A DNA stretch of 32,464 nucleotides from a virus, in IMG/VR virus record IMGVR_UViG_3300042892_000176, positions 1 through 32,464 of that record. One strand, written 5' to 3'. The first letter of the stretch is position 1. Every line of letters starts with the position of its first letter. Position numbers and translations under genes: made by a program. A model generated the notes under the pieces. The model did no database searches and had not been told where the DNA came from. It saw nothing but the letters and a program-made list of their open reading frames with translations. Below are positions 4,666 to 26,619 of this stretch, piece after piece.

Positions 4666-7008
4666 ATGGCCGCAATTACAACTCGCTCGGGCAAGGGTTC
4701 TCCGCTAACCAATGCGGAGATGGATGCCAACCTAACCAGTCTCAATGAGTCGCAGACTGTCATGGGCGAGCCTATGGGCCATGCCGATAAAACACAGTCA
4801 ACGATTTCGTTTGATGCGGGTACACGCACATTCACGATTACCCCTGTTGGCGCGAACTTTGTTGTCTGGTGTAAGGGCGAGAAGTACACCTACACAACAG
4901 CACAGACAGTTGTTATTCCAGACACTGCTGGCCTTCATTACATTTACTTCAGCTCGTCTGGCGTGTTGTCAACAAAGATGTCATTCTTCACGTGGGATGA
5001 AGATGCGCCAACATCTTATGTTTATTGGAACGCAACAAACAACGAGGCTGTTTACTTTGCCGATGAACGTCATGGTGTTACTCTTGACTGGCAAACACAC
5101 GAGTACCTTCACAGAACTCGCGGCGCAGCAATAGCAAATGGATTTGCAGCCAGTGGATACACCTTGTCTGGGGACGGAAGTGCAGATGCAGATGCACAGA
5201 TAACGATAGAAGGCGGCACGTTCTTTGACGAGGACATGCAGATTGACATTGTTTCGTCCAACACTCCAACAGCAAATACATTTGAGCAAGATCTCAACAG
5301 CCCAGCTCGCATACCAATTCTGTATCTTGAAGGAAGTGAGTGGAGAATCACATCTCCAACCGACTATCCCGTTAAGCAGGGAACAGCTAGGCCACAGTAC
5401 AACCTGTTTATTGGCGGTGTTTGGACTCTTGTTGATGTAGCCAATACAGACTTCACGTGTACATGGATTCTTGCAACCAACAACCTTAACTATCCGGTAG
5501 TTGGAGTAATCAGCCAATCAAATCTGTCCACGCTAAACAATGCAGAAGCTGCCGTGTTTGAGGATTTGGACTTGCCAGGATTCCCATCTGTTGAGTTCAG
5601 GCCGCTGTACAAGCTTATATTCCAGTCTAACAGCCCCTATTCAAATACTCCCCACGCAAGATTAAGGGGCATCACGGACATCAGAAGTATCTCTTCTGTT
5701 GGAGTGGCTGCGGCTCTTGTCACAGATCATGGGAACTTGTCTGGGTTAACAGATGATGACCACCCACAGTATCTGTCCACATCAGATGCTCGATCTGGAG
5801 TTGCTTCTGCTGTTAAGAAGAGTCTGATACCCTCAGCCCCAGTTGCTGGTGGTATTGCTTACGGAACAGCAGACTCTTTTGATTTCTCTGTCGCTGGCAC
5901 TGCTGGACAAGTTCTTACATCTGGCGGCGCATCTGTTCCGACATGGACAAGTTCGACAAACGCAAACACGGCTCTGGCAATCGTTCAGAGAGATGCGAGC
6001 GGCAACTTCACCGCAGGAACAATTACAGCGGCATTGGTGGGTAATGCAGATACGGCGACAACAGCAACAAATCTTGCTGGTGGTGGAGCCAATCGTATTG
6101 CTTATCAAACAGGATCTGGGGCATCTGCATTTGCAGTTGCGCCAACAACAACTGATACGTTTCTGAAGTGGGATGGATCAGCATTTGCATGGGCTAGTGC
6201 AGGGTCAAATATCACCGACGATACGACAACCAATGCCACGTATTACCCAGCACTGTCTACATCAAACTCAGGTTCATTCTCCTCGGTCAGGACTTCCAGC
6301 ACTAAGCTTTCATTTAACCCAAGCACTGGACTGCTCACAGCCACAGCGTTTGCTGGAAACTTAACAGGTAATGTTACCGGCAACGTCACAGGATCATCAG
6401 GCTCTTGTACTGGTAATGCGGCTACTGCTACAACAGCAACAAACCAATCAGGCGGTACAGTAAGTGCAACTACCATTGCAATGTCGGGAACGACATTTAC
6501 AGCAACAGGTGGCTCAAGTGCAACTTATGGGGCGATGACTATAAGGGGAGAAAAGGGAAGTTGGGCGGGTTTAAACTTTAAAGATACTGCTGGCACAAAC
6601 TGTAATACGTTGATGGCTCGATCTTCCGATGGCTATGGTGGCATCTACAACAAAGCAGATAGCACATGGCTAATCCAATGGGATGGTTCCGGCAACGTCA
6701 CCGCCACCGCCAACGTCACAGCCTATTCGGATGAACGCAAAAAGAAAAATTGGCGCGACTTGCAACCTAATTTTGTTGAGCAACTTGCCACTGTAAAACA
6801 CGGAATATATGATCGTATTGATGAAGAGATTACACAAGTCGGTGTATCAGCACAAGCATTACGACCAATCATGGAACACGCAGTTTTAGAAGATGAAAAT
6901 GGCAACCTGTCTGTGGCATACGGAAACGCCGCCTTGGTAGCTTGTGTAAAACTTGCACAACGTGTTGTAGATCTTGAAGCAAGATTGAAGGCATTGGAGT
7001 CTAAATAA
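4666..7008 (+). CDS. Tail fibre with C-terminal S74 chaperone domain
   Basis: A 780-residue fibre. The N-terminal 340 residues are beta-rich and likely the virion anchor. Then comes the common tail-fibre motif HGNLSGLTDDDHPQYL (about 355-370), a Thr/Ala/Gly/Asn-rich repetitive shaft (400-680) with NVTGNVTGSSGSCTGNAATATTATN-type repeats, and from 686 an intramolecular chaperone of the peptidase S74 family. The start motif YSDERKKKN contains the Ser (688) and Lys of the expected self-cleavage dyad, and the protein ends in a coiled coil (VKLAQRVVDLEARLKALESK). In this family the chaperone trimerises the fibre and then cuts itself off. It is the main candidate for a receptor-binding protein. Confidence 0.88.
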   Translation: MAAITTRSGKGSPLTNAEMDANLTSLNESQTVMGEPMGHADKTQSTISFDAGTRTFTITPVGANFVVWCKGEKYTYTTAQTVVIPDTAGLHYIYFSSSGVLSTKMSFFTWDEDAPTSYVYWNATNNEAVYFADERHGVTLDWQTHEYLHRTRGAAIANGFAASGYTLSGDGSADADAQITIEGGTFFDEDMQIDIVSSNTPTANTFEQDLNSPARIPILYLEGSEWRITSPTDYPVKQGTARPQYNLFIGGVWTLVDVANTDFTCTWILATNNLNYPVVGVISQSNLSTLNNAEAAVFEDLDLPGFPSVEFRPLYKLIFQSNSPYSNTPHARLRGITDIRSISSVGVAAALVTDHGNLSGLTDDDHPQYLSTSDARSGVASAVKKSLIPSAPVAGGIAYGTADSFDFSVAGTAGQVLTSGGASVPTWTSSTNANTALAIVQRDASGNFTAGTITAALVGNADTATTATNLAGGGANRIAYQTGSGASAFAVAPTTTDTFLKWDGSAFAWASAGSNITDDTTTNATYYPALSTSNSGSFSSVRTSSTKLSFNPSTGLLTATAFAGNLTGNVTGNVTGSSGSCTGNAATATTATNQSGGTVSATTIAMSGTTFTATGGSSATYGAMTIRGEKGSWAGLNFKDTAGTNCNTLMARSSDGYGGIYNKADSTWLIQWDGSGNVTATANVTAYSDERKKKNWRDLQPNFVEQLATVKHGIYDRIDEEITQVGVSAQALRPIMEHAVLEDENGNLSVAYGNAALVACVKLAQRVVDLEARLKALESK

Positions 7009-8069
7009 TGGTAATGCCAGCAAGTGGGCCATTGAACATGGGCGGTACATCCAGCCCTGTTAGTGTTGCTCAAGAACTTGGTTTGGGATTGACATCAACA
7101 ATCACAATGGATCAAGCCAACGTGCGTACTCTTGCTGGTGTTGGTGGCAGTGGAACAGCTTGGAGCATGAGTTCGCTTTACGGAAAAGCAAATAGAGTTG
7201 CTATTTCATTTACATATTCATCAAACACCGCAGATGCTTCTTTAAACTTATCCGCTATTGGTGGATATATCGCTGGTAAATCAGATATAACGGTAACTAT
7301 TGGTTCAGGTGTTTATGTTTATGCAAGTACAAGTAACACATCGGCTGTGCCAGGAGTTGGGTTAACACTTTCGGGCGGCACAACTGGTGACACATTAACT
7401 ATTGTCAATAATGGATTTATTCTTGGTGGCGGTGGTCGCGGTGGTCAAAACACAACGGTAGCGGGTGGCCCTCAAGCGGGTTCAAATGGCAGCACCGCAT
7501 TAAGTCTAAGCATGTCTGCAACCATAAACAACACAAATGGCGGCGCTTATATTGCTGGCGGTGGTGGTGGTGGATCTGTAGGTGGTATTGCTGGTCAGCA
7601 AGGCGGCGGTGGCGGTGGCGCTGGTGGTGGTTTTGGTGGTAATCCTCCAAACTATAGTGCTTACAACGCCACTGGAGGTGGCCCTGGCGCAACTGGAGCC
7701 AATGGCACTAATGTTACTACAACATCGTCGGGTTTTGGCGGAGGCGCTGGCGGTGGTGGCGGTGGACTGGACAGTGGTAAGGGTGGATTTGGTGGATCAG
7801 GCGGAGCCGGTGGACGAATTTTGCCAGGATCGGGTGGTGCAGGGGGAGTAGGAACTTTATTTACCGGCGGTGCTGGAGGTTCTGCAAACGCTACCGGAGA
7901 CGCTGGAGGCCAAGATGGGGGCGCTGGTGGTGGTGGCTGGGGAGCATCAGGTGGCTTTAAAGGCTTTGGCTACACAAGCGGCGCAGGAGGAAAAGCTGTT
8001 GCGCTAAATGGTTTTTCTGTTACGTGGGTAAGCGGAAACACAACAAGAGTTTATGGAGCAGTATCATGA
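7008..8069 (+). CDS. Glycine-rich adhesin-like tail protein
   Basis: A 353-residue protein. The N-terminal 60 residues (PLNMGGTSSPVSVAQELG, then a short SMSSLYGK) match a module often found at the start of podovirus tail-tip proteins. From about 140 to 335 it is very rich in Gly with few charges, in runs such as GGGGGGSVGGIAGQQGGGGGG. Such segments can fold as packed polyglycine-II helices, as in the gp38-type adhesins of T4-like phages, with variable loops making receptor contacts. It ends with a short beta segment. The start overlaps the S74 fibre stop (TAATG). Receptor binding is inferred from composition and position. Confidence 0.72.
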   Translation: MVMPASGPLNMGGTSSPVSVAQELGLGLTSTITMDQANVRTLAGVGGSGTAWSMSSLYGKANRVAISFTYSSNTADASLNLSAIGGYIAGKSDITVTIGSGVYVYASTSNTSAVPGVGLTLSGGTTGDTLTIVNNGFILGGGGRGGQNTTVAGGPQAGSNGSTALSLSMSATINNTNGGAYIAGGGGGGSVGGIAGQQGGGGGGAGGGFGGNPPNYSAYNATGGGPGATGANGTNVTTTSSGFGGGAGGGGGGLDSGKGGFGGSGGAGGRILPGSGGAGGVGTLFTGGAGGSANATGDAGGQDGGAGGGGWGASGGFKGFGYTSGAGGKAVALNGFSVTWVSGNTTRVYGAVS

Positions 8070-8569
8070 CGGAAAGAGTAAATGCACAAGGCGAAGTGCT
8101 AATGACCAAAGAGCTTCTTTTGCATCTTGGTTCTTGCGGGCTTAGTTTTGACAGGCCAAATCAAAAAAATTACGATCCAGCAAATGAAGATGGATCACCT
8201 GATGACCATTACCACACTGTTGGAAATATGTGGGGTAAAACTGAAGCCGTGTGTCTTGAATATTGTATAAAAAACAATCTAATGAAAGATACTGCTTGGT
8301 ATCTAAAACAAAGAGAAACAGAAAAATTTGTACGTTACACAGGAAAGGTGTTCACAATGGGCAAGTATCAAGTTTTTAATCCGTTGACTGGATTACACAC
8401 GTATTGCGAAACAGAAGAATTGGCAAAAGCCGCTATAGCAGAAATTTCAAAGCAAATTTTAGAAACGCACAAGATTTCTGTTTGCCGAGAATTTTCAAAT
8501 GAGCATGGTCATACAACTTGGGTTGCAGAGCAAATAGTCGATCCAATAACCATTTCTCCAAACATTTGA
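8066..8569 (+). CDS. Unknown protein paired with the di-iron enzyme
   Basis: A 167-residue soluble protein. A GTG at 8024 would extend the frame, but ATG 8066 overlaps the previous stop (ATGA) and is preferred. No domain is recognised. Seen: LGSCGLSFDRPNQKNYDPANE near the start, a His/Asp-rich DDHYHTVGNMWG, several Cys, and a second half with FNPLTGLHTYCETEELAKAAIAEIS and NEHGHTTWVAEQIVD. The base composition is distinctly more AT-rich than in the fibre genes either side, like the next gene. Four bases separate the two, so they probably arrived and act as a pair. It could be a partner or substrate of the di-iron protein, or a fibre cap; sequence alone cannot decide. Confidence 0.7.
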   Translation: MTERVNAQGEVLMTKELLLHLGSCGLSFDRPNQKNYDPANEDGSPDDHYHTVGNMWGKTEAVCLEYCIKNNLMKDTAWYLKQRETEKFVRYTGKVFTMGKYQVFNPLTGLHTYCETEELAKAAIAEISKQILETHKISVCREFSNEHGHTTWVAEQIVDPITISPNI

Positions 8570-8573
8570 ACAC

Positions 8574-9371
8574 ATGCAAATTGAACTGTTCAACAATGGC
8601 AAACCAGTTGAGTGGGGTAAGCCTGATTCATTTGTAACGGCTATCATGTGTGCGTTGTCAATGAGTTTTCCAGGCGGTGAAGATTTTTTTATTGACTCGT
8701 TACAAAGGGGATTTGCCGATCTTTCGCCACAGTTAAAAGAAAAGTGGAAATCTGAAATTGATAGATTTTGTAAAGAAGAAATGAATCACAGTAGGGCGCA
8801 TGTAATTCACAATCAAAAAAACATTGATACATATGGATTTGTAAACAATTGGTCGACTAGGACAGCAAGGCGTGTTGCAAGAATAAAGGGAAAAAACTCT
8901 AGGCACTACGTTGCCTCTACTGCCGCAATAGAGCATCTGACAACAATTTTAGCTTGTTGGGTTTTGCAAAACCAACACATACTTGATAACGCTGATCCTG
9001 CAACCAAAAAACTTTGGGTGTGGCACGCTGTAGAAGAAATAAACCATAGAAAAGTTGCAATAGATTTGTACAGGGACTTGGACGGTTCAGAAGAATGGCG
9101 CATTAAATGGATGCGAGCCATGTATATCTTAAATTTAATTGAGCTTGTTCGGCAGACAACCAGCAATGTTTGGCGCATGGGTGGCTTTTTTAAATTGTCC
9201 ACATGGATCAATGCTTACAAAATTATGTTTTCACGCAACGGTGTTTTTAGATGGTCTTACCCACATTTCATGGCGTATGGACAGCGTGGCTACCATATCT
9301 CTCAGCAAGATGGTTTGATAGGCGCTTGTCTAGAGAATCACCTTAAACGAAATTTAATTCAATCTAAATAA
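8574..9371 (+). CDS. Ferritin-like di-iron protein (PF10118-type metal-dependent hydrolase)
   Basis: A 265-residue mainly helical protein. Candidate metal ligands sit on successive helices: Glu36 (PGGEDFF), Glu69-x-x-His72 (EEMNHSRAH), Glu120 (STAAIEHL) and Glu155-x-x-His158 in WHAVEEINHRKVAIDLY. The last motif is the signature I know from the predicted metal-dependent hydrolases of PF10118, thought to be ferritin-like di-iron enzymes. The family's reaction is poorly defined; di-iron carboxylate proteins are usually oxygenases or hydroxylases. Low-GC composition and its place between two glycine-rich tail proteins suggest recent acquisition. It could modify a tail protein or a host surface molecule (inference). 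Confidence 0.8.
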   Translation: MQIELFNNGKPVEWGKPDSFVTAIMCALSMSFPGGEDFFIDSLQRGFADLSPQLKEKWKSEIDRFCKEEMNHSRAHVIHNQKNIDTYGFVNNWSTRTARRVARIKGKNSRHYVASTAAIEHLTTILACWVLQNQHILDNADPATKKLWVWHAVEEINHRKVAIDLYRDLDGSEEWRIKWMRAMYILNLIELVRQTTSNVWRMGGFFKLSTWINAYKIMFSRNGVFRWSYPHFMAYGQRGYHISQQDGLIGACLENHLKRNLIQSK

Positions 9372-9390: not shown

Positions 9391-10662
9391 ATGCCAGTCT
9401 TATTTACAAACAATGCAACCACAACGCTAGGATCTTCAATCCTCATCGGAGATCTGTCGTTGACTGTTGCTTCAGGAACAGGCGCTCTGTTCCCGGCAAC
9501 AACAAGCGGATTCTTCTACGTTGCTCTTGTCAACTCAAGCAACCAGATAGAGTTTGTCAAAGTCACCACTCGCTCATCTGACACGTTCACTATTGTTAGG
9601 GCGCAGGGAGGGTCGTCTGCTCGCGCATATACGGCAGGTGACAAGGTTGAACTTCGGTTGATTTCAACAGCCCTTGAGAATTTTGTTCAACTCGATGGCA
9701 CTCAAACCATATCAGGCAACAAGACATTTAGTGGAACTGTTGCGTTGAGTGGTGGCGGGTCTATGTCCGGAACCTATACCGGCAGCCCAACACTTTCTGG
9801 CAACCCGACCTTCTCAGGCAACCCCACATTTAGCGGAACTCCTGTGTTCAACACTGCTACAGCTTCTTCTACAAGAACGAGCTTGGGTTCAACAACTGTA
9901 GGTGATGCTGTATTTATTGCGGCAGACGCTGCTGCGGCAAGATCAGCAATTGGCTCTGTAATTGGCACTAATGTCCCTTCACCAACTGGTACTGGGGCAA
10001 GCGGTACATGGGGCATAAACATTACAGGTAATGCCGCCACTGCTACATCAGCTACATCAGCAGGGAGCGTAAGCGGAACAGTTGCGGTAGCAAATGGGGG
10101 AACAGGTACTTCTTCAGGTATTGCAACCAACGTACAAGTATTTACCTCTTCCGGAACATGGACTAAGCCCACTGGTGGTCAAAACATGGCATATATTCAA
10201 ATGTGGAATGGAGGAGATGGTGAAACAGCAGGAAACGGAGGCACTTCTTCTGTTCCCTTAAATACCACTTATATAAACTCATCTACCGTAAGTCCTTTCG
10301 CAAATACTGTTAGCACGGGTACTACCTTTGGCGGTGGAGCTGCCGGTGGTACTAATACAAGTGGAGAAAGTTCAATATTTGGCGGGGGTGGTGGTTCAGG
10401 AGGCGCAGGCGGAGTTGGCGGTACAAGTCAATTTGGTGGCAATGGTGGAGGGCCTGGAACAGCAGGTAGCGCACCTGGCGGTGGCGGTGGCGGTGCTAGT
10501 AGTCTTGGCGTTGCTGGAGCTAAAGGGGGTAACTATGCAGAAGTTACAATTCCATTGAGTTACTTAAATAACGGAATTACAGTTACGGTAGGTGCGGGTG
10601 GGGCGGGAGGCCCAACCAGGTCTGCTGGCGGGTCTGGAAGAGTAATCATAACTAGCTTTTAA
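9391..10662 (+). CDS. Second tail fibre with glycine-rich tip
   Basis: A 423-residue protein with a strong AGGAGG-type Shine-Dalgarno ahead of ATG 9391. Residues 1-90 form a beta-rich head (TTTLGSSILIGDLSLTVASG, then YVALVNSSNQIEFVKVTTRS) of a type that often anchors phage fibres. A low-complexity shaft follows, with SGNPTFSGNPTFSGTP repeats and TGNAATATSATSAGSVSG. From about 300 there is a Gly-rich tip ending ITVTVGAGGAGG...GGSGRVIITSF, typical of glycine-rich phage tip domains. It resembles the 7008-8069 product in its last third but not in its shaft. A branched or second receptor-binding fibre is likely. Confidence 0.8.
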   Translation: MPVLFTNNATTTLGSSILIGDLSLTVASGTGALFPATTSGFFYVALVNSSNQIEFVKVTTRSSDTFTIVRAQGGSSARAYTAGDKVELRLISTALENFVQLDGTQTISGNKTFSGTVALSGGGSMSGTYTGSPTLSGNPTFSGNPTFSGTPVFNTATASSTRTSLGSTTVGDAVFIAADAAAARSAIGSVIGTNVPSPTGTGASGTWGINITGNAATATSATSAGSVSGTVAVANGGTGTSSGIATNVQVFTSSGTWTKPTGGQNMAYIQMWNGGDGETAGNGGTSSVPLNTTYINSSTVSPFANTVSTGTTFGGGAAGGTNTSGESSIFGGGGGSGGAGGVGGTSQFGGNGGGPGTAGSAPGGGGGGASSLGVAGAKGGNYAEVTIPLSYLNNGITVTVGAGGAGGPTRSAGGSGRVIITSF

Positions 10663-13168: not shown

Positions 13169-14980
13169 ATGGCCGCACTGAAGATCTCCGCTTTTGCTGG
13201 CATTGCGCCGAGGGTAGGCCCTGCTTTGTTGAAAGACAATGAGGCCACCATAGCAATCAATACAAAACTGTATAGCGGAGAGCTTCGGGCGTGGAATAAA
13301 CCGGGAGTTGTCGAAGGGGCTGCGTCTTTAGCCTCAAGCGTCAAGTCAATATACAAACACAAGAATGTTGCTGGCGATGATTTGTGGTTGTCGTGGTCAA
13401 CAGATGTGAATGTTGTGCCAAGCCCAATCTTTGATACTGGCCTAAATCCAATCTACTACACAGGTAGCGGAACCCCAAAGAAAACAAACTCAACTCTCTC
13501 GGAAACTGGCACAGCACCATTCCCCGGTGATTACTATGAGATGGGAGTGCCTGCGCCAACATCTGCCCCCAGCGTATCTGCTGCCGGAGGATCTGGTACG
13601 GCAGAGAGTCGTGTTTATTTGTTTACGTATATATCAATATTTGGGACTACAGAAGAAGAGTCAGCCCCATCTCCTGCTTCATCTGTTGTATCTGTTCTTC
13701 CTGGTGGAACTGTTACCGTTTCTGGTCTTGGAACAACAGCTCCTGCTGGCGACTACAACATAACAACAAAGAGAATCTATCGAGCTGTATCTGGTACGTC
13801 AACAACCATATATCTTAAAGTTGCGGATGTTGCCATTGGCGCAGCATCTTATTCAGATACAACAACAGCCGCTCAGCTAGGTGGCGCTCTTGAGTCATCC
13901 AGCTACAACACACCCCCATCAGACCTTCAGGGTATTGTGGCAATGGCTAACGGTATATTGGCTGGGTTTAGAGGCAACGAGATATATTTCTCTGAGCCTT
14001 ACATTCCTCACGCATGGCCTGTTGAATACTCATTAACTGTTGAGTTCCCTATTGTTGGGCTTGGCGCATTCGGAGAATCTGTTGTTGTTGCAACAAAAGG
14101 TAATCCATTCATCATCAGCGGATCGACACCATCCTCAATGTCTCAGGCAAAGATACCTCTCTTTGAGCCTTGTGTTTCTAAGAGATCAATCGTCTCAGAC
14201 GACACAGGCGTGATGTATGCGTCACCCAACGGGGTTGTGAAGATCTCTCAGGGCTTTGCTGGGGTAACAACAAATGGATTGTTCACTCGTGACGAGTGGC
14301 AACTTAGATACCCAGCTACCATGCTGGGCGCTGTATTAGATGGAGCGTATTACCTGTTTTGGGAAGATCAAGCAAATGCTGTCCAAGAGTGTTTAATCCT
14401 AGACAGGAACGAATCCGCCTCAGCCTTGACTACAACAAGTATTTTTACAACAGCAGTATTTATTGATCCAACCACGGCGCAGCTTTTCTTTCCATACAAC
14501 GGAGTGGTTAGCGCATGGGAAACAGACGCATTAAACTTTCTCACCTATGATTGGATGTCTAAGTTATACATACTCCCACGACCAGTTAACTTTTCTGCCA
14601 TACAGATAGATGCTGCCTTTGAAGATATTGCTTTAGTTTCTGCGTTGCAAGATGAAGTTGATGCAATCATTGCTGAAAATCAAACAGTTTTTGCATCTGG
14701 CGTTGACCTTCTCTCTACACTAGGTAGTGTTGAGATTGGCAAAATTGTTTTAGGTGGATCAATACTTCAGAAAATCCCCGGCGGCGTGTCGACTCTTAGC
14801 CTGCAAGTAAAGATTTATTGCAACGGAGTGTTGGTGTCAACAACATCTATTACTGACAGATCAACATATCGCCTTCCATCTGGATTCAAGAGCGACAGAT
14901 GGCAGTTCAGACTCAGCGGCAATGTTCCTCTTAGAGCATTCAAGATCGCAGAGACAGCAAAAGAATTGGCGCAGCTATGA
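13169..14980 (+). CDS. Large tail protein (probable nozzle/hub)
   Basis: A 603-residue, mostly beta protein that begins immediately after the endolysin stop. The opening ISAFAGIAPRVGPALLKDNEATIAINTKLYSGELRAWNKP is the characteristic start of a family found in many short-tailed phages; the middle contains a fibronectin-like stretch (VYLFTYISIFGTTEEESAPSPAS) and the blade-like segments GILAGFRGNEIYFSEPYIPHAWP and DGAYYLFWEDQANAVQECLILD. I assign it to the tail nozzle or tube end (T7 gp12 role) by size, composition and order. It is followed by an ATGA overlap. Confidence 0.65.
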   Translation: MAALKISAFAGIAPRVGPALLKDNEATIAINTKLYSGELRAWNKPGVVEGAASLASSVKSIYKHKNVAGDDLWLSWSTDVNVVPSPIFDTGLNPIYYTGSGTPKKTNSTLSETGTAPFPGDYYEMGVPAPTSAPSVSAAGGSGTAESRVYLFTYISIFGTTEEESAPSPASSVVSVLPGGTVTVSGLGTTAPAGDYNITTKRIYRAVSGTSTTIYLKVADVAIGAASYSDTTTAAQLGGALESSSYNTPPSDLQGIVAMANGILAGFRGNEIYFSEPYIPHAWPVEYSLTVEFPIVGLGAFGESVVVATKGNPFIISGSTPSSMSQAKIPLFEPCVSKRSIVSDDTGVMYASPNGVVKISQGFAGVTTNGLFTRDEWQLRYPATMLGAVLDGAYYLFWEDQANAVQECLILDRNESASALTTTSIFTTAVFIDPTTAQLFFPYNGVVSAWETDALNFLTYDWMSKLYILPRPVNFSAIQIDAAFEDIALVSALQDEVDAIIAENQTVFASGVDLLSTLGSVEIGKIVLGGSILQKIPGGVSTLSLQVKIYCNGVLVSTTSITDRSTYRLPSGFKSDRWQFRLSGNVPLRAFKIAETAKELAQL

Positions 14981-18091: not shown

Positions 18092-21000
18092 ATGGCAACA
18101 GGTCTTTCGTTATTTGGCGATGAGGACATCGACAGAGAAAATGACTCTCTCTATCTGTCAAAAGATGAAGCTCTAAGAACTGAGGTTCTTCCTAGATCTT
18201 ACGGCGGGGACGTAAAACCCAGAACCGCCATCTCTACCCCGTCATCATCGGCTTCAATGCAACAGACTGGCTCGGCCAATCTTTTCTCTTTGGACGATCT
18301 CATGGGATCTGCTGTCCGTCAACCACCTCCATCGGAGACTGCGACAGCAAAGCCCAGCGAGATGTTCAGCGTCAATGATCTGATGGGCATAAAGTCTTCT
18401 CCAACAACTACGCCAGTTGAGAAGGCTCCAACCGAAGATACCGGCGACTTCATGCGAGGCGGCGGCACAGCACTGGCACAGACCCCAGCTTTAGCATTTG
18501 GCGCTCTTGGCTTTGCCGGAGCCGCTGGCGAGAAAGCCTTTGGTACTGGCGGAGCCATGACTTCGCTGAAGAACTATGGCCTGAGAGAGTACGGCAGCCG
18601 AATGAAAGAGATCGGCGCAACAGCCAAGGACACAGACGATGTGACCAAGGCTTGGGACAAGGCTAAGCAGGGCGATCTTGGTGCTTTGGTTGATTGGGCG
18701 CAGTATGGCGTTGGTTATCTTGGCGGCAGCATCGTCGAGACGGTCGCCACATCCGCCCTCGGATCTGCCATCGGTGGACTTACTGCTGGCCCTGCCGGTG
18801 CTTTGGCTGGTGCTGGTGCTGGTGCTGTTGGAAAGCAGGCCGTTCAAGGTGTTGCCAAGAATCTGATCGAAGGCATGGTCGCCAAGGAAGCCGCTAAGCT
18901 GGCTGAAAAAGAAGGCGCTGAGTTTGCAACGGAGCAGATGCTCAAGCAGGCTACAAAGACTGTCGCCAAGAACATTGGCTCTGGTACTGCTCTGGTTGGC
19001 TCCGGCATCATCAAGTCAACTGGCGGCATTTATGGCGAGGCAGAAGAGCAGGCAGGGAAAGAAGGCCGCGAACTGACTGGCGGTGACTTGGCTCGAATCT
19101 TTGGATCTGGCGTTGTTGCCGGTCTGTCTGAGGCGGCGGTTGATCGTCTTGGCTTGGGCGTTGCGGCTGGCAAGATCAATATCCCCGGCGCTGGTCGCCC
19201 CGGTCGTGCGCTGATTGGCGGTGCGGCTGGTGTTGGTATTGAGGGTGGTCAAGAACTATTCCAGACAGCCATTGAGCGTTTCGGCGCAGGCAAAGATCTC
19301 ACTGGCGAAGATGCCATGAACGAGTACATCAATGCCTTTGCGTTGGGTGGTTTAGGCGGCGGCACTATTGGTGCTGCGGTCGGCGCTTTCCGTGGAGGCA
19401 AGACATCCCCCGACAGAGTTCGACAGATTCTGGAGCAGGCTCAGGCTGATATGACCTCCGATGATGGTCGTCAGGAACTGTTCGACTCCATGTTCGACGA
19501 CCCCAATCTTGGCCCGATTCTTCAGGCCAACGGTATTGAGTCTGGCGACGATCCAAGATTCCAGAATGTAGTCACCAAGGCACTGGCTACCCAGCGCATG
19601 TTGGTTGACCTTGAGGCTCCAACTCCTGAAGCCAGAGCTGAAACCAGAAAGCAGCGTGAGGCTGATGTCCTTGCCGCATTTGGCGAGACAGCATCTACCG
19701 CAGTCGGTGGGTCTACAGGCGCAATCGAGCCTGTCATCCAGCGAGCCAGCGTAACTCCCAATCTTGAGACCCGCACCCTCGAAGGTGAAGCTCAACCAGT
19801 GATCCTGCCAGAGACAGCAGGCGGTCAGGCTGGTACGGTTGCTCTGTCGCCTGAAGACTTGGTTGCCAGACAGCAAGGCTTCGAGCCATTGATCGGCATC
19901 ACAACAGACAAAGGCCCAGTCGGGAACAGATTCCCATCACCCCAGGCTGCCGAGACTTTTCTGTTCGGCCCGAAAGACGCAAAGACAGGACAGCGCAGCG
20001 GAGGCTACGCCCAAACAAACTTGGTCGGACAGGGACTTGAGGCGCGAATCCGTCAGGGTAAACGCTCCAAAGCCGAAGGCGGCGGCACGTTCTATTTTGT
20101 GGAGACTCGTAAGAAGCCAGCAGAGGTAACTCCTGCGGCAGCTCCGGTAGTAACACCATCTGCTCCGGTAACAACCGCTGCTGCTCCGGTAGTGACTCCT
20201 GCCGCTCCAGTAGTAACGCCAGCCGTTATCCCTACCGCTCCAGCAGTTCCAACTGTCACAGCAGCAGCGCCAGCAGTCATCGCGCCGAAGGCGGTAAAGG
20301 GCAAGAAGGGGAAGGCGGCAAAAGCTCCTGCCGCAGTAGCCCCTGCTGTCACAACCCCTGCTGTCGAGGCGGGTGCTCCGGTTCAACCACAAAGAGCCGA
20401 ATTTGCTGGTGTCGCCAAAACAAATTTTGATACAGCAATTGACCAAGTTGGGGAGTACGCCTCACTAGATGAGGCTCTGGACGCATACCGACAAAACACG
20501 ATTGATACCCTCACTGACAGCGGAGAGACAGACCAGCTCGTTCTTCAGCAGGCCGGTGATGCGTTTGATAGATTGGTCAATGACTACAAATCAAAACAAG
20601 GAGAAGCAGATGCCACTCAAACAAGGCAAGTCACAAAAGGTGGTAAGCAGCAACGTCAAGGAGCTGGTGAACAAGTTTCAGCGGTCGGGGAAGATCGGGG
20701 AGTCAAGGCCGAAGAGCAAACAGGCGGCGGTGAAACAGGCCGTGGCGATCAGCCTGTCGAAGGCGGGACTCAACCGCAAGAAGTAAAACCAGCAGTTGAC
20801 CCTGTAATGCAGGCTCGTGTTAAGGAGCGCATTAACAGAGCAGACGAAGACGGCGGACTTGACTTTGAGGACGTTGTTAAGCTGAACAAGATGGTTGATG
20901 ACGGCGACCTTATGGGCGCAATCAACAGCATGAAAAAGATTGTTGAAAGCAATATTGGGGCAGGGGCTGGCGCAAAGTACAGCCTAAGCAGAACTCCGCA

Positions 21001-24000
21001 GGCAGCTACAACAGGAAGGGATTTTGCATATGGCAACCTCAAAACCGTTGACGACCTCAACAAAGATGTCAGAGGATACCTTGCAAGACAAGGAGGAGAA
21101 GGCGGGACGTTTACCGCAACGCGAGTACCTCTCGGCAATCTTGCTGGAAAGGTTCCCGGCCTCCCTGCCATGCAACGCATTGCCGATCTGTTCGGAAAGA
21201 AGCTCGTATATTTTGCAGTGGAGAAGGGAAGTGTTGACCTCATAGACGGCGCTGTCCTCAGTGGGTCAGACACAATCTTCGTCAATGTAAATAGCACTCA
21301 ACCACACATTCGGGTATTGGGCCACGAGATGGTTCATGCTTTGCGGTTCAGCCATAAAGAAATTTATACTGCGCTCACAAAACATCTGACTCCCTATCTG
21401 GATCAGGGCGGCATGAATGCCTATCGAGCGCAGCTCAGCAAAGAGGGCATGAAAGACCCAGCATTGATTCTGGAAGAAGCTATTGGCGACATCGTTGGAG
21501 ACAGATTCGGTGAATCCTCCTTCTGGCAGATGATGGCCGATGAGAATCCAAGCATGTTCACACAGCTCGCAAGAATTGTTGTGGACTTCCTTGATTCAGT
21601 AATGAACAAGATCCGCAGCAAGCAGACTCTGGACTCCAAAAATCTGTTGACAGATGTCGCTGCTGCACGCCAAGCAATCGTCAGCGTTCTGGCAGACTTT
21701 GAACAGAAGCAGCCAGCAGCACCAGCTCAACCAGAAGCTCAACCAGTCGCAGAGCCTGCTCCAGTGCAGGCGGAACAAGAGCGTCCTTCACCCATGTTCA
21801 GCCGCAAGCCAGAGGGTGAGATCTTCTACTCTGCACTCGAACGTGCATTTGTTAATCCCAAAATCAGCCTCGATAAAAATGGTGCAACAACTGGTCAGCA
21901 GTGGAAAGCTTGGCTTGAATCCAATCGCTCAAATATTGGTGTCAAGAAGGAAGAGATTGAATACGTAGGAATAAACGACTGGCTGAGCTTAAATGAAAAA
22001 GAAAAACTTACGCCAGATCAGGTTCGCACATGGGTTATAGCAAACAAAGTTGGCATCAATGATGTTCTGTTGACCAGTGATAGGCCAGATGGTGCGCCAG
22101 TTGCAGAGTTTAGGGAGCCTACTGCCGATGACATGCGTGAGTTTATTGATGAATGGGTTGCCGAAAATCAGTTTGAAGATAACATCGGTGACGTAGACGA
22201 GTCTATTTTTGAAACTGGCGCAGACGACATGACAGAGCTGGAGATGCGCCAGTGGATTACCGACAACTTTGGTTGGCAAAACTTTTTGCATAAGCACCGC
22301 CGCCTTATGGAAAGATTCCAACGGGGTCGTGTCACCAACATGCTAAGACCAAAGCATGGGGATGATTGGCTTGTACTGCCCGGCGGGAAAAATTATGTTG
22401 AGCTAGTTCTTTTCGATCCCACGATTGCCAAATACAAAGAAGACGATGACGTTCACTTTGGAGATGTCTCCCAAGGAAGGGCCATTGGCTGGCTTCGCAT
22501 GAATCAGCGCAAAGACAAAGATGGAAACGATGTCTTATTCATTGAAGAGATTCAAAGTCAGAGAGCGCAAGAAGGAAGGAAACGAGGCTTCGCCAATAAA
22601 AGCGATAGTGCTTTATCTGCTCGTGCCGCAAGCTTGAAAAAAGAAGCCGAGTCTCTTGAAGATCGACTTGACGATCTTGTCATTGACATTGAGAACATGC
22701 GCGAAGACAGAGAAGCGTATGAAGACATGGATGATGACGTTTTTGAGGCGACTATTTCGGGGTTTGAAAAGGAAGCTCAAGAAAAAGAAGCAAGACTCTT
22801 CGAGGTAGAAAATGAACTCAGCACACTACCTGCTATTGGTGAAGTGCCGATGGCTCCGTTTGTAGAGAAGACAGAATCTTGGACGGCTCTTCTTTTAAAG
22901 AGGGCAATGGCTTATGCCCAGAAAGTTGGCATTGATACGGTTGTCTGGACAACAGGTGAACAGCAGAACGAGCGTTACCAGTTCAAGGGCGACGAGCTTG
23001 CCTACGTCAAGGACAACAATACAAACACATACACCCTAACCATAAAAAAGAGTGGCACACCAGATAGATCTGCGCCAGGAATCTCAGAGAATGATTTGCC
23101 TGACTATGTTGGCGATAAAGTGGCTCAGCGCATACTCGAAGGCAAGGGTGCAAAAAAGAGCAAAAAATACAACACAGTTAGCGGATCTTTCACTGGCGAG
23201 GAAATGAAGTTGATGACTGCAAATCTGCGTCCATACTACAACCAGACACTTCCGTCTGTTGCCAAGGATGTCATGAAGAGCCTCAAGGCAGACGGCAAAG
23301 TTGAGGTCTTTGACATAGAGTCAACAGGACAGCAACTTGGTTTTGTCATTCCTGAAAGTGTGCAAGAACAGGTTGCAAACGATGGCTTCCCTATGTTCAG
23401 CCGTAAGAGATACGAAGATCAATTCTCTGATGTCAGCCCAGACACCCGCGAACGTGCGTTGAATAAAGGCTTCTACTCTCCTCCCACAATCAAGGAGAGA
23501 CTGGATCACCTTCGTCCAAACTTTGCGCTGCGTATCGTTCAGGGTACGTTCGACAAGTTCCGTTCTGTCCGTGACATCAGCCAGAAAGCCTACCTCATGC
23601 TTCGCATGTCTGCTGGTTCTCAGGATGGTGCTGTCTCCGCTCTTCTGCATTACGGTCAAGTCTTCAATGATGACGGCGCACTGAATGTGAAGAAGGGAAC
23701 ACAGGGATTGCTGGAGGTTCTTGATCCTGTCGGTGGAGAGGTTGATCGCTTCCTGCTTTGGATTGCAGCCAACCGTGCGGCAGCTCTGTCGAAGGATGAG
23801 CGCGAGCGTTTCTTCAGCCCCGAAGACATTAAGTCTTTGCGTGGCCTGAACATGGGTACGATGAAGAATGGCAAGTCTCGTCTTGCTGTTTACGCCGAGA
23901 CCCTGAAGAACATGAACGAGCTGAACAGATCTGTTCTGGATGTCGCCAGGGACACCGGGTTGATTGATGCAGAAGGGTACAAACGCTTCTCCGCAGACAT

Positions 24001-25996
24001 CTGGTACATCCCGTTCTATCGACAGATGGAAGATGACGGCAGCCTGTCGGCAGCCCAGACCAGCTCTGGAGCTGTTGGTCAGTATCTGTCCAAGAAGCTA
24101 AAGGGCAGCGAGCGTCCGCTCAACGACCTGATGGAGAACGTCCTGATGAACTGGACGCACATCCTGTCAGCCTCGATGAAGAACCAAGCCGCCGTGGAAG
24201 CATTGACATCCGCTACAGCTATGGGCGACATCGTGACCAAGCTGGAGAGGCAGGAGAAGGGCGCTGTCAAGGTTATGGAGAAGGGCAAAGAAAACTTCTA
24301 CCGCATCGACGACGAGTTCCTTCTGACATCACTGTCTGCTGTTGCTCAGATGCCCAGCTACGGATGGGGCATGGACATCATGCGTGGCTTTAAAACTACG
24401 TTGACTCGCTTCATCTCCTTGTCTCCCACCTTCAAGATCAACAACTTGATCCGAGACTCGATCCAGTCTATCGGTCTGTCTGAACTCAGCAGCAGCCCAA
24501 TGGGTAACGTGATGCAGGGCTGGAGAGCCTACAAGACAGAACGTGCCGAGGCTCTTGCTGGTGGTGGCCTGTTCGCTATGGGCAACGCCTTCGACGGAGA
24601 TCAGTCCGCATCAGTGAAGCGCCTGCTCAAGACCGGCGTGAACAAAGCCGACATCTTGGACACACCAGAGAAGGTGGCCTCCTTCTTTGGAAAGATGCAA
24701 GACAAGTACGACGAGGTGAGCGATGCCTCTGAGAATGCCAACCGCCTTGCTCTGTATCAACAGCTCCGCGCAAAGGGAGCCTCGCACCTTGAGGCATCCT
24801 ACGCCGCAAGAGATTTGCAGGACTTCAGCTTGCAAGGTAGCTGGTCTGCTATCCGCTATGCAGCTCAGGTTCTGCCGTACTTCAATGCCAGACTTCAGGG
24901 CTTGTACAAGCTGGGCCGCGATGGACTCGACCCCACCATGCAGGTGCTGACAGGCAAGGCTTCAGACACCGAGAGACAGAAGGCGGCAAAGTTTGCCACT
25001 GTCACCGGAGCTGTCGTGACTGCTGCCATGATCCTGTATCTGTCGCAGAAGGACGATGAGGACTGGAAGAAGCGTGAAGACTGGGATCGTGATGCCTTCT
25101 TCTGGTTCAAAATCCCCGGAACAGATAACGCCGTCCGCATCCCCAAGCCATTCGAGATGGGTGCGATTGCGACTCTGGTTGAGCGCATGACAGAACAGAT
25201 GGTTGACTCGCAGGTTGAGGGCAAGGTCTTTGGTAAGCGATTGCTGGCTGTGTTGCATGACACCTTCGCCATCAACCCAATACCACAGGCCATCCGTCCT
25301 CTCTACGACATCGCCCGTAACAAAGACGGATTCACTGACCGGCCCATCGAAAGCATGGGCATGGAAAGAATATCTGTCCAGAACCGTGTCTCCCCTGGAA
25401 CTTCTGGAGCTGCTGTTGCACTTGGAACTGTCAACAGTCTGTTCGCTGAGTTTGCTTCTAAGGCTACCGGCGGGGCTATCGGCACACAGTCCACGCAGCT
25501 ATCGCCAATTCAGTACGACTACTTGCTCAAGGGATACCTTGGCTGGGTCGGAACAGTAATTCAGACAGCATCCAATGTGGCGGCTACTCCATTCAAAGAT
25601 GGCGCATCGTCACGGTACGAGCGTATTGATGACTTCTTGGTTGTGGGCAACTATGTCAAGACAGTTCCTCAGTCACAGTCTCGCTATGTCACATCGTTCT
25701 ATGAGAACGCCAAGGACATCGCAACCGCAACATCAGATGTAAGCCACTTCCTGAACTCAGGTCAGCTTGAGAAAGCCAAGGAAGCGTTCGTGGAGAAGAG
25801 CGACAAGATTGCCCTAGCCAAGCTGTACACCAAAGGAACCAACATGATGTCAACCATTGGCAAACAGGTGAAGATGGTGGAAGACGATCCCAAGATGAGT
25901 GGCGCAGAGAAGCGGCTTGAGATTGAAAGACTGCAACAGCTTCGCATCCAGATAGCCAAGGATGTCGAGGACATTCGTATCGCAGCCAAGAAATGA
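18092..25996 (+). CDS. Giant polyvalent internal virion protein, 2634 aa, with zincin motif and LPD38-like end
   Basis: By order and composition this is a DNA-ejection protein. Modules: disordered start (1-120); Gly/Ala-rich hydrophobic segments (about 200-440) able to enter membranes; Pro/Ala/Val linker (about 674-765); linker overprinted by a nested gene (840-899); a metallopeptidase-like domain with HEMVH (His1078, Glu1079, His1082) and downstream acidic LEEAIGDIVGD (1127-1137). Next comes a module with LFIEEIQSQRAQEGRKRGF (from about 1482) and VWTTGEQQNERYQF (from 1618), a pair I recognise from phage large polyvalent proteins. A long helical region from about 1790 to the end resembles LPD38 and includes a hydrophobic VTGAVVTAAMILYL. 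PMFSRK recurs at 1234 and 1767, marking module borders. The size is comparable with the largest phage ejection proteins; family names are from memory. Confidence 0.82.
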   Translation: MATGLSLFGDEDIDRENDSLYLSKDEALRTEVLPRSYGGDVKPRTAISTPSSSASMQQTGSANLFSLDDLMGSAVRQPPPSETATAKPSEMFSVNDLMGIKSSPTTTPVEKAPTEDTGDFMRGGGTALAQTPALAFGALGFAGAAGEKAFGTGGAMTSLKNYGLREYGSRMKEIGATAKDTDDVTKAWDKAKQGDLGALVDWAQYGVGYLGGSIVETVATSALGSAIGGLTAGPAGALAGAGAGAVGKQAVQGVAKNLIEGMVAKEAAKLAEKEGAEFATEQMLKQATKTVAKNIGSGTALVGSGIIKSTGGIYGEAEEQAGKEGRELTGGDLARIFGSGVVAGLSEAAVDRLGLGVAAGKINIPGAGRPGRALIGGAAGVGIEGGQELFQTAIERFGAGKDLTGEDAMNEYINAFALGGLGGGTIGAAVGAFRGGKTSPDRVRQILEQAQADMTSDDGRQELFDSMFDDPNLGPILQANGIESGDDPRFQNVVTKALATQRMLVDLEAPTPEARAETRKQREADVLAAFGETASTAVGGSTGAIEPVIQRASVTPNLETRTLEGEAQPVILPETAGGQAGTVALSPEDLVARQQGFEPLIGITTDKGPVGNRFPSPQAAETFLFGPKDAKTGQRSGGYAQTNLVGQGLEARIRQGKRSKAEGGGTFYFVETRKKPAEVTPAAAPVVTPSAPVTTAAAPVVTPAAPVVTPAVIPTAPAVPTVTAAAPAVIAPKAVKGKKGKAAKAPAAVAPAVTTPAVEAGAPVQPQRAEFAGVAKTNFDTAIDQVGEYASLDEALDAYRQNTIDTLTDSGETDQLVLQQAGDAFDRLVNDYKSKQGEADATQTRQVTKGGKQQRQGAGEQVSAVGEDRGVKAEEQTGGGETGRGDQPVEGGTQPQEVKPAVDPVMQARVKERINRADEDGGLDFEDVVKLNKMVDDGDLMGAINSMKKIVESNIGAGAGAKYSLSRTPQAATTGRDFAYGNLKTVDDLNKDVRGYLARQGGEGGTFTATRVPLGNLAGKVPGLPAMQRIADLFGKKLVYFAVEKGSVDLIDGAVLSGSDTIFVNVNSTQPHIRVLGHEMVHALRFSHKEIYTALTKHLTPYLDQGGMNAYRAQLSKEGMKDPALILEEAIGDIVGDRFGESSFWQMMADENPSMFTQLARIVVDFLDSVMNKIRSKQTLDSKNLLTDVAAARQAIVSVLADFEQKQPAAPAQPEAQPVAEPAPVQAEQERPSPMFSRKPEGEIFYSALERAFVNPKISLDKNGATTGQQWKAWLESNRSNIGVKKEEIEYVGINDWLSLNEKEKLTPDQVRTWVIANKVGINDVLLTSDRPDGAPVAEFREPTADDMREFIDEWVAENQFEDNIGDVDESIFETGADDMTELEMRQWITDNFGWQNFLHKHRRLMERFQRGRVTNMLRPKHGDDWLVLPGGKNYVELVLFDPTIAKYKEDDDVHFGDVSQGRAIGWLRMNQRKDKDGNDVLFIEEIQSQRAQEGRKRGFANKSDSALSARAASLKKEAESLEDRLDDLVIDIENMREDREAYEDMDDDVFEATISGFEKEAQEKEARLFEVENELSTLPAIGEVPMAPFVEKTESWTALLLKRAMAYAQKVGIDTVVWTTGEQQNERYQFKGDELAYVKDNNTNTYTLTIKKSGTPDRSAPGISENDLPDYVGDKVAQRILEGKGAKKSKKYNTVSGSFTGEEMKLMTANLRPYYNQTLPSVAKDVMKSLKADGKVEVFDIESTGQQLGFVIPESVQEQVANDGFPMFSRKRYEDQFSDVSPDTRERALNKGFYSPPTIKERLDHLRPNFALRIVQGTFDKFRSVRDISQKAYLMLRMSAGSQDGAVSALLHYGQVFNDDGALNVKKGTQGLLEVLDPVGGEVDRFLLWIAANRAAALSKDERERFFSPEDIKSLRGLNMGTMKNGKSRLAVYAETLKNMNELNRSVLDVARDTGLIDAEGYKRFSADIWYIPFYRQMEDDGSLSAAQTSSGAVGQYLSKKLKGSERPLNDLMENVLMNWTHILSASMKNQAAVEALTSATAMGDIVTKLERQEKGAVKVMEKGKENFYRIDDEFLLTSLSAVAQMPSYGWGMDIMRGFKTTLTRFISLSPTFKINNLIRDSIQSIGLSELSSSPMGNVMQGWRAYKTERAEALAGGGLFAMGNAFDGDQSASVKRLLKTGVNKADILDTPEKVASFFGKMQDKYDEVSDASENANRLALYQQLRAKGASHLEASYAARDLQDFSLQGSWSAIRYAAQVLPYFNARLQGLYKLGRDGLDPTMQVLTGKASDTERQKAAKFATVTGAVVTAAMILYLSQKDDEDWKKREDWDRDAFFWFKIPGTDNAVRIPKPFEMGAIATLVERMTEQMVDSQVEGKVFGKRLLAVLHDTFAINPIPQAIRPLYDIARNKDGFTDRPIESMGMERISVQNRVSPGTSGAAVALGTVNSLFAEFASKATGGAIGTQSTQLSPIQYDYLLKGYLGWVGTVIQTASNVAATPFKDGASSRYERIDDFLVVGNYVKTVPQSQSRYVTSFYENAKDIATATSDVSHFLNSGQLEKAKEAFVEKSDKIALAKLYTKGTNMMSTIGKQVKMVEDDPKMSGAEKRLEIERLQQLRIQIAKDVEDIRIAAKK
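20112..20395 (+). repeat. Pro/Ala/Val-rich repeat linker within the polyvalent gene
   Basis: The coding DNA carries degenerate repeats of a GCTCCGGTAGTAACACCA-like unit, encoding APVVTP and its variants several times, then a Lys-rich GKKGKAAKAP island. The protein segment is probably an extended, flexible linker joining the membrane-active half to the downstream enzymatic modules. The repeats are imperfect, so slippage is probably old. Confidence 0.75.
20610..20786 (+). CDS. Nested small basic protein (DUF6496-like), out of frame in the polyvalent gene
   Basis: ATG 20610 opens a 58-codon frame, +1 relative to the surrounding giant gene, with AAGGAG six to seven bases upstream. The product begins MPLKQGKSQKVVSSNVKELV and ends KQAVAISLSKAGLNRKK. 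The layout (MPLKxGxSxKxxSxN, then PKSKQA...QAVAIxLSKAG) is what I know as DUF6496, a small basic family of unknown function common in phages. The enclosing frame there reads Gln/Gly/Glu-rich low-complexity sequence, so the recognisable protein is the nested one. Either an independent gene was captured inside a linker, or the linker arose by reading through it. Confidence 0.75.
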   Translation: MPLKQGKSQKVVSSNVKELVNKFQRSGKIGESRPKSKQAAVKQAVAISLSKAGLNRKK

Positions 25997-26619
25997 AAGA
26001 GTGCAGTAAATCCATGACCCGCAGAGTTCGTGACCCGAACTTTGCGAAGCGTTACTTTGTTGGGAATGGAGTAGACATCGGCGGTAGGCCAGATCCAATC
26101 TCAGCGCATCGAGATATGTTCAGCGGCATGGGCGATGTCAGGATATGGGACTTAGAAGATGGGGACGCACAGTTCATGGCTGGCGTTCCTGCTGAGTCCC
26201 TAGACTTTGTTCACAGCAGCCACTGCCTAGAGCATCTTGTCAATCCACGGGCTGGCCTCAAGGCTTGGTTCAATCTCTTGAAGCGTGGAGGCCACCTCAT
26301 TGTCACCGTCCCCGACGAGGATCTGTATGAGCAGGGTGTATTCCCAAGCACCTATAACTCAGACCACAAATGGACGTTCACCACACACAAGAAATACTCT
26401 TGGTCAGATCAGTCCATCAACGTGACAGATCTGTTTGTCGATCTTGGCGAGGCGGCGGAAGTAATTAAGATGGAACTCATAAGCGATGGCTATGAGTACG
26501 GGGCAAAGCGTTTAGACCAAACAATGTTCCCCGGAGTCGAGTGCGCCATTGAGTTCATCATCAGGAAGAGAACAATACAAGAGCTTGCAGACAGAGGAAG
26601 ATGGAGGAGATCATCATGA
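25993..26619 (+). CDS. Class I SAM-dependent methyltransferase
   Basis: A 208-residue methyltransferase of the Methyltransf_11 type. Seen: the SAM-binding strand and loop NGVDIGGRPDPI (25-36); an acidic residue after the second strand (VRIWDLE); LDFVHSSHCLEHLVNP (70-85), the usual fourth-strand motif; and LLKRGGHLIVTVPDEDLYEQG (95-115). The substrate cannot be read from sequence. Related forms occur in O-antigen and other glycan gene clusters and in phages, so sugar or small-molecule methylation is plausible; no DNA-methylase target-recognition motif is seen. The start overlaps the giant gene's stop (ATGA). Confidence 0.82.
   Translation: MKECSKSMTRRVRDPNFAKRYFVGNGVDIGGRPDPISAHRDMFSGMGDVRIWDLEDGDAQFMAGVPAESLDFVHSSHCLEHLVNPRAGLKAWFNLLKRGGHLIVTVPDEDLYEQGVFPSTYNSDHKWTFTTHKKYSWSDQSINVTDLFVDLGEAAEVIKMELISDGYEYGAKRLDQTMFPGVECAIEFIIRKRTIQELADRGRWRRSS

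Follow-up and report, generated by a model that had tools for sequence, protein, structure and literature searches.

A PF10118 enzyme as candidate third part of a host-recognition cassette exchanged among uncultivated phages

Host recognition by phages is generally explained by the sequence of an adhesin and by the chaperone that folds it. Alteromonas phage V22, with gp26/gp27, is a precedent for a fibre chaperone encoded downstream (PMC7289586), and in adhesins of the T2/S16 gp38 type the host-recognition protein combines glycine-rich motifs with hypervariable parts (PMC12892980). In T5, the receptor-binding gene (pb5) adjoins llp, which inactivates the receptor in superinfection exclusion (PMC9586334). 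Our searches of the literature returned nothing relevant on tail-fibre hydroxylation or on glycine-rich fibres with cupins or oxygenases, and no tested function for PF10118, a family named in one paper, or for COG3687.

Here we analyse one IMG/VR virus record of 32,464 bases, the whole of which we call the window. A preliminary description had singled out in it an AT-rich pair of genes, an unknown and a PF10118-type redox enzyme, between two glycine-rich adhesins.

Three genes in a late tail operon

The window has head, tail, internal-virion and lysis genes with PHROG matches. Because its internal virion protein (13169-14977) is ~30-33% identical to counterparts in Pseudomonas phage Itty13, Burkholderia phage BcepIL02, Erwinia phage PEp14 and Serratia phage Parlo, we describe the phage as a Bcep22-like podovirus. 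Elsewhere in the window are a glycosyltransferase family 9 gene of heptosyltransferase type right behind the major head protein gene (760-1818, + strand; PF01075, E=1.8e-16), a 2634-aa ORF for a giant polyvalent-type protein with an LPD38 domain and a C-terminal phrog_18222 match (18092-25996, + strand), and, overlapping the end of this ORF, a gene for a methyltransferase-domain protein (25993-26619, + strand; Pfam E=1.5e-9). The pair is part of the late tail operon and precedes the lysis genes:

4666-7008, + strand: upstream tail fibre with a Peptidase_S74 chaperone domain (Pfam PF13884, E=2.4e-6; phrog_25788), given as context
7008-8069, + strand: glycine-rich adhesin of 353 aa, 31% Gly (ORF; aligned with L007 and L008)
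8066-8569, + strand: partner protein P0001, 167 aa, an orphan gene (ORF with a 4-bp overlap with the adhesin stop)
8574-9371, + strand: PF10118 enzyme P0002, 265 aa (Pfam, ligand conservation, AF2, Foldseek)
7979-9284, + strand: exchange unit of the adhesin 3' end, P0001 and most of PF10118 (blastn against L015, L025 and L048)
9391-10662, + strand: second glycine-rich tail fibre gene, 423 aa, 21% Gly (phrog_8469 tail fibre, E=4.8e-19)

As the preliminary description had it, both reading frames of the pair are present at 8066-9371 and are AT-rich; their GC content is 0.38 and 0.39 against 0.49 for the whole window. Third-codon GC of the adhesin (0.29) matches that of the pair (0.29 and 0.37), so the adhesin seems to belong with them. 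The placement between two glycine-rich adhesins stands only in part: both flanks are rich in glycine, but the relevant one is the upstream adhesin, and the downstream fibre type was not seen behind the trio in the related contigs L008, L015 and L048. The upstream adhesin has a non-glycine N-terminal region of ~130 aa, a variable glycine-rich middle and a conserved C-terminus ending in AVxLNGxxVTWVSGNTTRVYGAVS.

P0002 scores 175.4 bits against PF10118 (Metal_hydrol), where the cut-off is 33.2 (E=2.2e-51), over model positions 10-247 of 247 and 240 residues, which bears out its earlier assignment; it has no PHROG match. The full ferritin-like ligand set that had been read from it (E36, E69xxH72, E120, E155xxH158) is kept in 87-88 of 88 aligned phage and bacterial relatives. 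All 88 keep E36, E120, H121, H151, E154, E155, H158 and H241, and E69, H72 and H76 are kept in 87, the lone exception (L110) looking like a gene with a local frameshift. The AlphaFold2 model of P0002 is all-helical (pLDDT 94.3) and places the ligands on four long helices, with E36 predicted in H32-48, E69xxH72 in H52-87, E120 in H109-132 and E155xxH158 in H142-168. Its top Foldseek matches in the PDB are R2lox, aldehyde-deformylating oxygenase (ADO), AurF and UndA, with probabilities up to 1.00 yet E-values of 0.08-0.4 and TM of ~0.5; nearly all top matches belong to the ferritin-like di-metal oxidase class, at E-values that are weak, 0.08 at best. No sequence relative with a solved structure was found in the PDB. 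We infer that PF10118 is a family of ferritin-like di-metal oxidases or oxygenases and not of hydrolases, and P0002 is most likely a di-iron (or Mn/Fe) oxygenase. The proposed di-iron redox enzyme is in this way supported as a probable fold, from AF2 and Foldseek. PF10118 is only one of several enzymes at that position, as described below. Bacterial relatives are chromosomal and common in Burkholderiales, the best at ~42% identity; scanning their neighbourhoods by eye revealed no clear recurrent operon, no recurrent phage context and no adhesin link.

P0001, which had been taken for an unknown, indeed has no significant match in Pfam, PHROG, NCBIfam or PADLOC. The family alignment and AF2 model suggest an N-terminal helical module and a C-terminal beta-beta-alpha-beta-beta core (Y.VFNP.TG....E.EA....NE.G..TW); the core is modelled with confidence (pLDDT ~94), and its fold search against the PDB gave no usable match. 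Neither Pfam, PHROG nor the PDB fold search links P0001 to a known chaperone family (Tfa, gp38), and tail-fibre-assembly or chaperone PHROGs are matched by just 2 of 15 members of the partner family, so we leave it out of the Tfa class, although its function may be similar. In position it resembles a chaperone, being encoded immediately downstream of the adhesin, and among 32 loci the partner gene overlaps the adhesin stop by 4 bp in 26 and by 1 bp in two, and starts within 15 bp of it in four. By analogy with V22 gp27, the likeliest role of P0001 is that of chaperone or adaptor to the glycine-rich adhesin.

Recurrence of the trio and the enzyme slot behind the partner

Co-occurrence of the pair with glycine-rich tail genes in other phages, the check that the preliminary description had put forward, is found, and the adhesin that recurs in distinct phages is of the upstream type. 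Together with the conserved ligands, this goes against both refuting outcomes, on conservation and on co-occurrence, that the same description had named. In L008/L025, L015 and L048, the adhesin, a P0001 homologue and PF10118 stand in the window's order. In L008/L025 and L015, the P0001 homologue is 65% and PF10118 60-63% identical, and in L048 PF10118 is 54% identical (E=6.5e-52). This group appears T4-like, unlike the window's phage, because a gp32-like protein is encoded in L008 and matches to gp32 and gp59 occur among the genes pooled from these loci. The sole DNA of the window that blastn aligns to L015, L025 and L048 is 7979-9284, at 65-70% similarity, a block that begins ~90 bp before the end of the adhesin gene, covers P0001 and takes in almost the whole of PF10118. 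The four cassette copies of PF10118 group together as a single clade (SH-aLRT 100), whose long stem lies next to Burkholderiales sequences and away from the remaining phage PF10118 genes. Judged from these alignments, adhesin end, partner and PF10118 have been exchanged as a unit between distinct phages. Between L008 and L015, dN/dS is 0.21 for PF10118, which is under purifying selection in the T4-like contigs, and 0.24 for P0001. With this dN/dS and the recurrence in order in distinct phages, the association of the trio is more than chance. The enzyme is not constant in it, since L007/L009 have the adhesin and P0001 and no PF10118.

In T4-like contigs, phage tmRNAs of the betaproteobacterial permuted type (Rfam RF01850/RF04321) lie near the cassette at L025:7298-7664 (- strand), L048:22-332 (+), L015:4758-5104 (+) and L053:3656-3989 (-), two of them with readable tags (ANDESYALAA and ANDSRFELAA). 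These and the nearest bacterial PF10118 sequences suggest betaproteobacterial hosts for the T4-like cassette group. Also near the cassette are genes for a phosphate-binding (PstS)-like protein and a Gram-negative porin in L015 (5064-7379, + strand; Porin_4 in the pooled control) and for a TctC receptor in L048 (2772-3719, + strand).

The adhesin C-terminus, searched as the DNA pattern TWVxG[N/D]TTR[V/I]YG, was found in 35 IMG/VR stretches, metagenomic contigs of which many are short; 28 distinct loci remained once near-duplicates were removed. In nearly all of these, a gene for the same small partner overlaps the adhesin stop or begins at it. The position behind the partner acts as a slot for enzymes of several kinds. 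Among 53 genes behind the partner, Pfam at E<0.01 called PF10118 and methyltransferase and Cupin_2 proteins four times each, and a 2OG oxygenase, a fatty-acid desaturase and a glycosyltransferase 2 once each, in ~14 loci; cupins, 2OG-like proteins and a weak GNAT match recognised by homology and visible motifs, which are softer calls, bring the loci with an enzyme to ~22 of 28. The other six have none, so the enzyme is dispensable for adhesin function in some phages. A control set of 125 other genes of these loci yielded mostly families of virion structure, lysis and replication, plus two 2OG oxygenases and two GT9, as judged from the 25 commonest families. Homologues of slot enzymes elsewhere in the loci are limited to three 2OG proteins just upstream of the adhesin, a count that is partly circular because the query set was drawn from cassettes.

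Enzyme class follows the partner: from the pairwise similarity of partners it can be predicted if two loci have enzymes of one class, with an AUC of 0.87 that 0 of 500 label permutations reached, whereas similarity of the adhesin N-terminus has no predictive value (AUC 0.52) and that of the adhesin C-terminus little (AUC 0.61). Linkage between neighbouring genes accounts for part of this tracking, although the adhesin C-terminus also adjoins the partner. The enzyme thus co-segregates with the partner, and L041 and L058 each encode partner and cupin as one fused protein.

Searches outside these metagenomic contigs were negative. Among 50,697 isolated-phage records there was no match to the N- or C-terminal pieces of the adhesin or to one slot cupin, although low-complexity filtering may hide some matches, so we have no cultured relative with the adhesin. 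In 399 genomes belonging to the order of a Comamonadaceae genome that carries PF10118, neither the adhesin motif nor P0001 had a match, and so no prophage host was obtained.

PF10118 also occurs in other surroundings. In a 259-kb contig (L029:10339-11594, + strand) a 2OG-Fe(II) oxygenase gene (PF13759, E=1.5e-11) shares one base with a different PF10118 gene, another pairing of both oxygenase types, and in a 331-kb contig (L020:8556-10249, - strand) a glycine-rich protein of another type is followed by a PF10118 from the other phage clade, possibly a second, independent pairing. In L022, L028, L033 and L035, PF10118 is packed tightly between the gene for a 402-aa protein and a nucleotidyltransferase-like gene, with no glycine-rich neighbour. 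Several other matches of P0002 were rejected as evidence of carriage by phages. Most of its matches in phage records, the 'Acinetobacter phage MD-2021a' records (CAKLQH02/CAKLQF02), are bacterial contigs that appear misfiled as phage (gltB, trpA, accD, pyrG, kdsA); in H1 (OQ658364) the relative is unannotated, has no annotated neighbour within several kb and is possibly host flank; and the IMG/VR matches L019, L021 and L036 look like host flanks.

What the enzyme may act on

Since enzyme class follows the partner and the enzyme can be fused to it, the enzyme most likely acts on the complex of adhesin and partner. Our main reading is that the partner is the adhesin's chaperone or adaptor and that the enzyme modifies the complex, its putative substrate; we hold it tentatively, at a probability of about 0.36. 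P0002 would then be the enzyme of a mobile three-part host-recognition cassette of adhesin, partner and enzyme. P0001 would be made by translational coupling with the adhesin, would serve it as chaperone or adaptor, and would bring P0002 to its target. While virions assemble in the infected cell, P0002 would work on the adhesin-partner complex and oxidise a side chain in one of the two proteins. In other phages the same slot is filled by a cupin, a 2OG-oxygenase-like protein or another enzyme. That many uncultivated phages pair an adhesin with a dedicated adaptor and a swappable, mostly oxygen- or metal-dependent enzyme that oxidises the adhesin complex post-translationally, so that binding is set partly by modification and not by sequence alone, is a broader claim that we consider doubtful. 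With the trio recurring in unrelated viruses and different enzymes in its third position elsewhere, host recognition appears to have an enzyme activity coupled to it in a way that the literature searched does not describe.

The chemically mixed nature of the slot enzymes speaks against modification of the complex, and the membrane fatty-acid desaturase of L064 would hardly act on a protein. So do the six loci that lack an enzyme, the weak Foldseek E-values and the co-segregation that linkage by itself produces between adjacent genes. The main rival, somewhat unlikely in our estimation, is that the enzyme alters the lipid or LPS of the host envelope that the adhesin sees, so that infected cells and debris stop binding progeny virions; this would be superinfection exclusion, and the enzyme would travel with the adhesin because the two must match. 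The best structural relatives of P0002 include enzymes that bind fatty acyl chains (R2lox, ADO, UndA), which points to lipids. A glycosyltransferase, methyltransferases and the weak GNAT match share the slot with the desaturase, the window itself carries the GT9 gene and the methyltransferase gene noted above, and T5 offers a precedent in its receptor-blocking gene llp, adjacent to and downstream of the receptor-binding gene (PMC9586334). An enzyme of the envelope would sit less easily in a late tail operon, however, or be tied by partner-cupin fusions to a protein that looks like one of virion assembly. L015 and L025, moreover, keep the same enzyme (PF10118 90% identical, partner 84%) despite differing in the variable middle of the adhesin (58%).

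As the null explanation, the junction between tail fibres and lysis genes may be a hotspot that tolerates insertions, in which unrelated auxiliary metabolic genes have settled without any functional tie to the adhesin. The slot's enzyme types other than 2OG oxygenases are ordinary phage cargo. Six of the 28 loci do without an enzyme, and the T4-like relatives have other cargo nearby (PstS-like and porin genes in L015, TctC in L048, tmRNAs). Phages that infect marine bacteria commonly carry 2OG oxygenases (PMC12774648). Insertion of unrelated cargo nevertheless fits poorly with relatives of the slot enzymes sitting, within the loci, directly behind the partner or (the three of 2OG type) just upstream of the adhesin, with enzyme class tracking partner class up to the point of fusion, and with a single block of adhesin end, partner and PF10118 common to distinct phages, and we judge it rather improbable. 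Still less probable is a small-molecule or stress role, in which P0002, taken from a betaproteobacterial host, would be a stand-alone oxidase or a scavenger of oxygen or iron and would target a metabolite of the host as the phage infects it: the chromosomal Burkholderiales relatives with no recurrent phage context, and PF10118 genes away from glycine-rich genes in other T4-like contigs, would suit it, but the four copies in the cassette are a clade of their own and stay next to adhesin and partner, and P0002 seems to bear no sign of a storage-ferritin cage. A role in anti-phage defence was set aside because neither P0001, P0002 nor the adhesin has a PADLOC match.

Comparison with described systems

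If modification of the adhesin complex is the correct reading, an exchangeable enzyme that is inherited with a chaperone-like partner would give host recognition a further, chemical level; the envelope alternative would make it a built-in receptor change. It would also give PF10118, a widespread family, its first functional setting. The question is directly testable, since the three genes are small, can be co-expressed and can be read out by mass spectrometry.

Within PF10118, the 'predicted metal-dependent hydrolases', P0002 is a member with all invariant residues, but its predicted fold is that of a ferritin-like oxidase, in contrast to the family name, which is probably wrong, and the bacterial members lack the adhesin link. 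With the ferritin-like di-metal oxidases (R2-like ligand-binding oxidase, aldehyde-deformylating oxygenase, AurF/CmlI and UndA) it appears to share ExxH...ExxH on long helices; it differs in having no sequence similarity to them and in its additional conserved His76, His121, His151 and His241, and its fold matches to them stay at a TM of ~0.5 and an E of 0.08 at best. Among phage systems, T5 pb5/llp would fit modification of the envelope, although Llp is a lipoprotein and not an enzyme, and no adaptor lies between the two genes. The gp38 adhesins of T2 and S16 are glycine-rich with variable parts like the adhesin at 7008-8069, which no Pfam or PHROG match connects to them. Closest in layout are T4 gp37/gp38, Mu Tfa and V22 gp26/gp27, where, as with P0001, a small gene stands immediately downstream of the receptor-binding gene; P0001 matches no Tfa or gp38 family, and here the gene for an enzyme follows as the third part.
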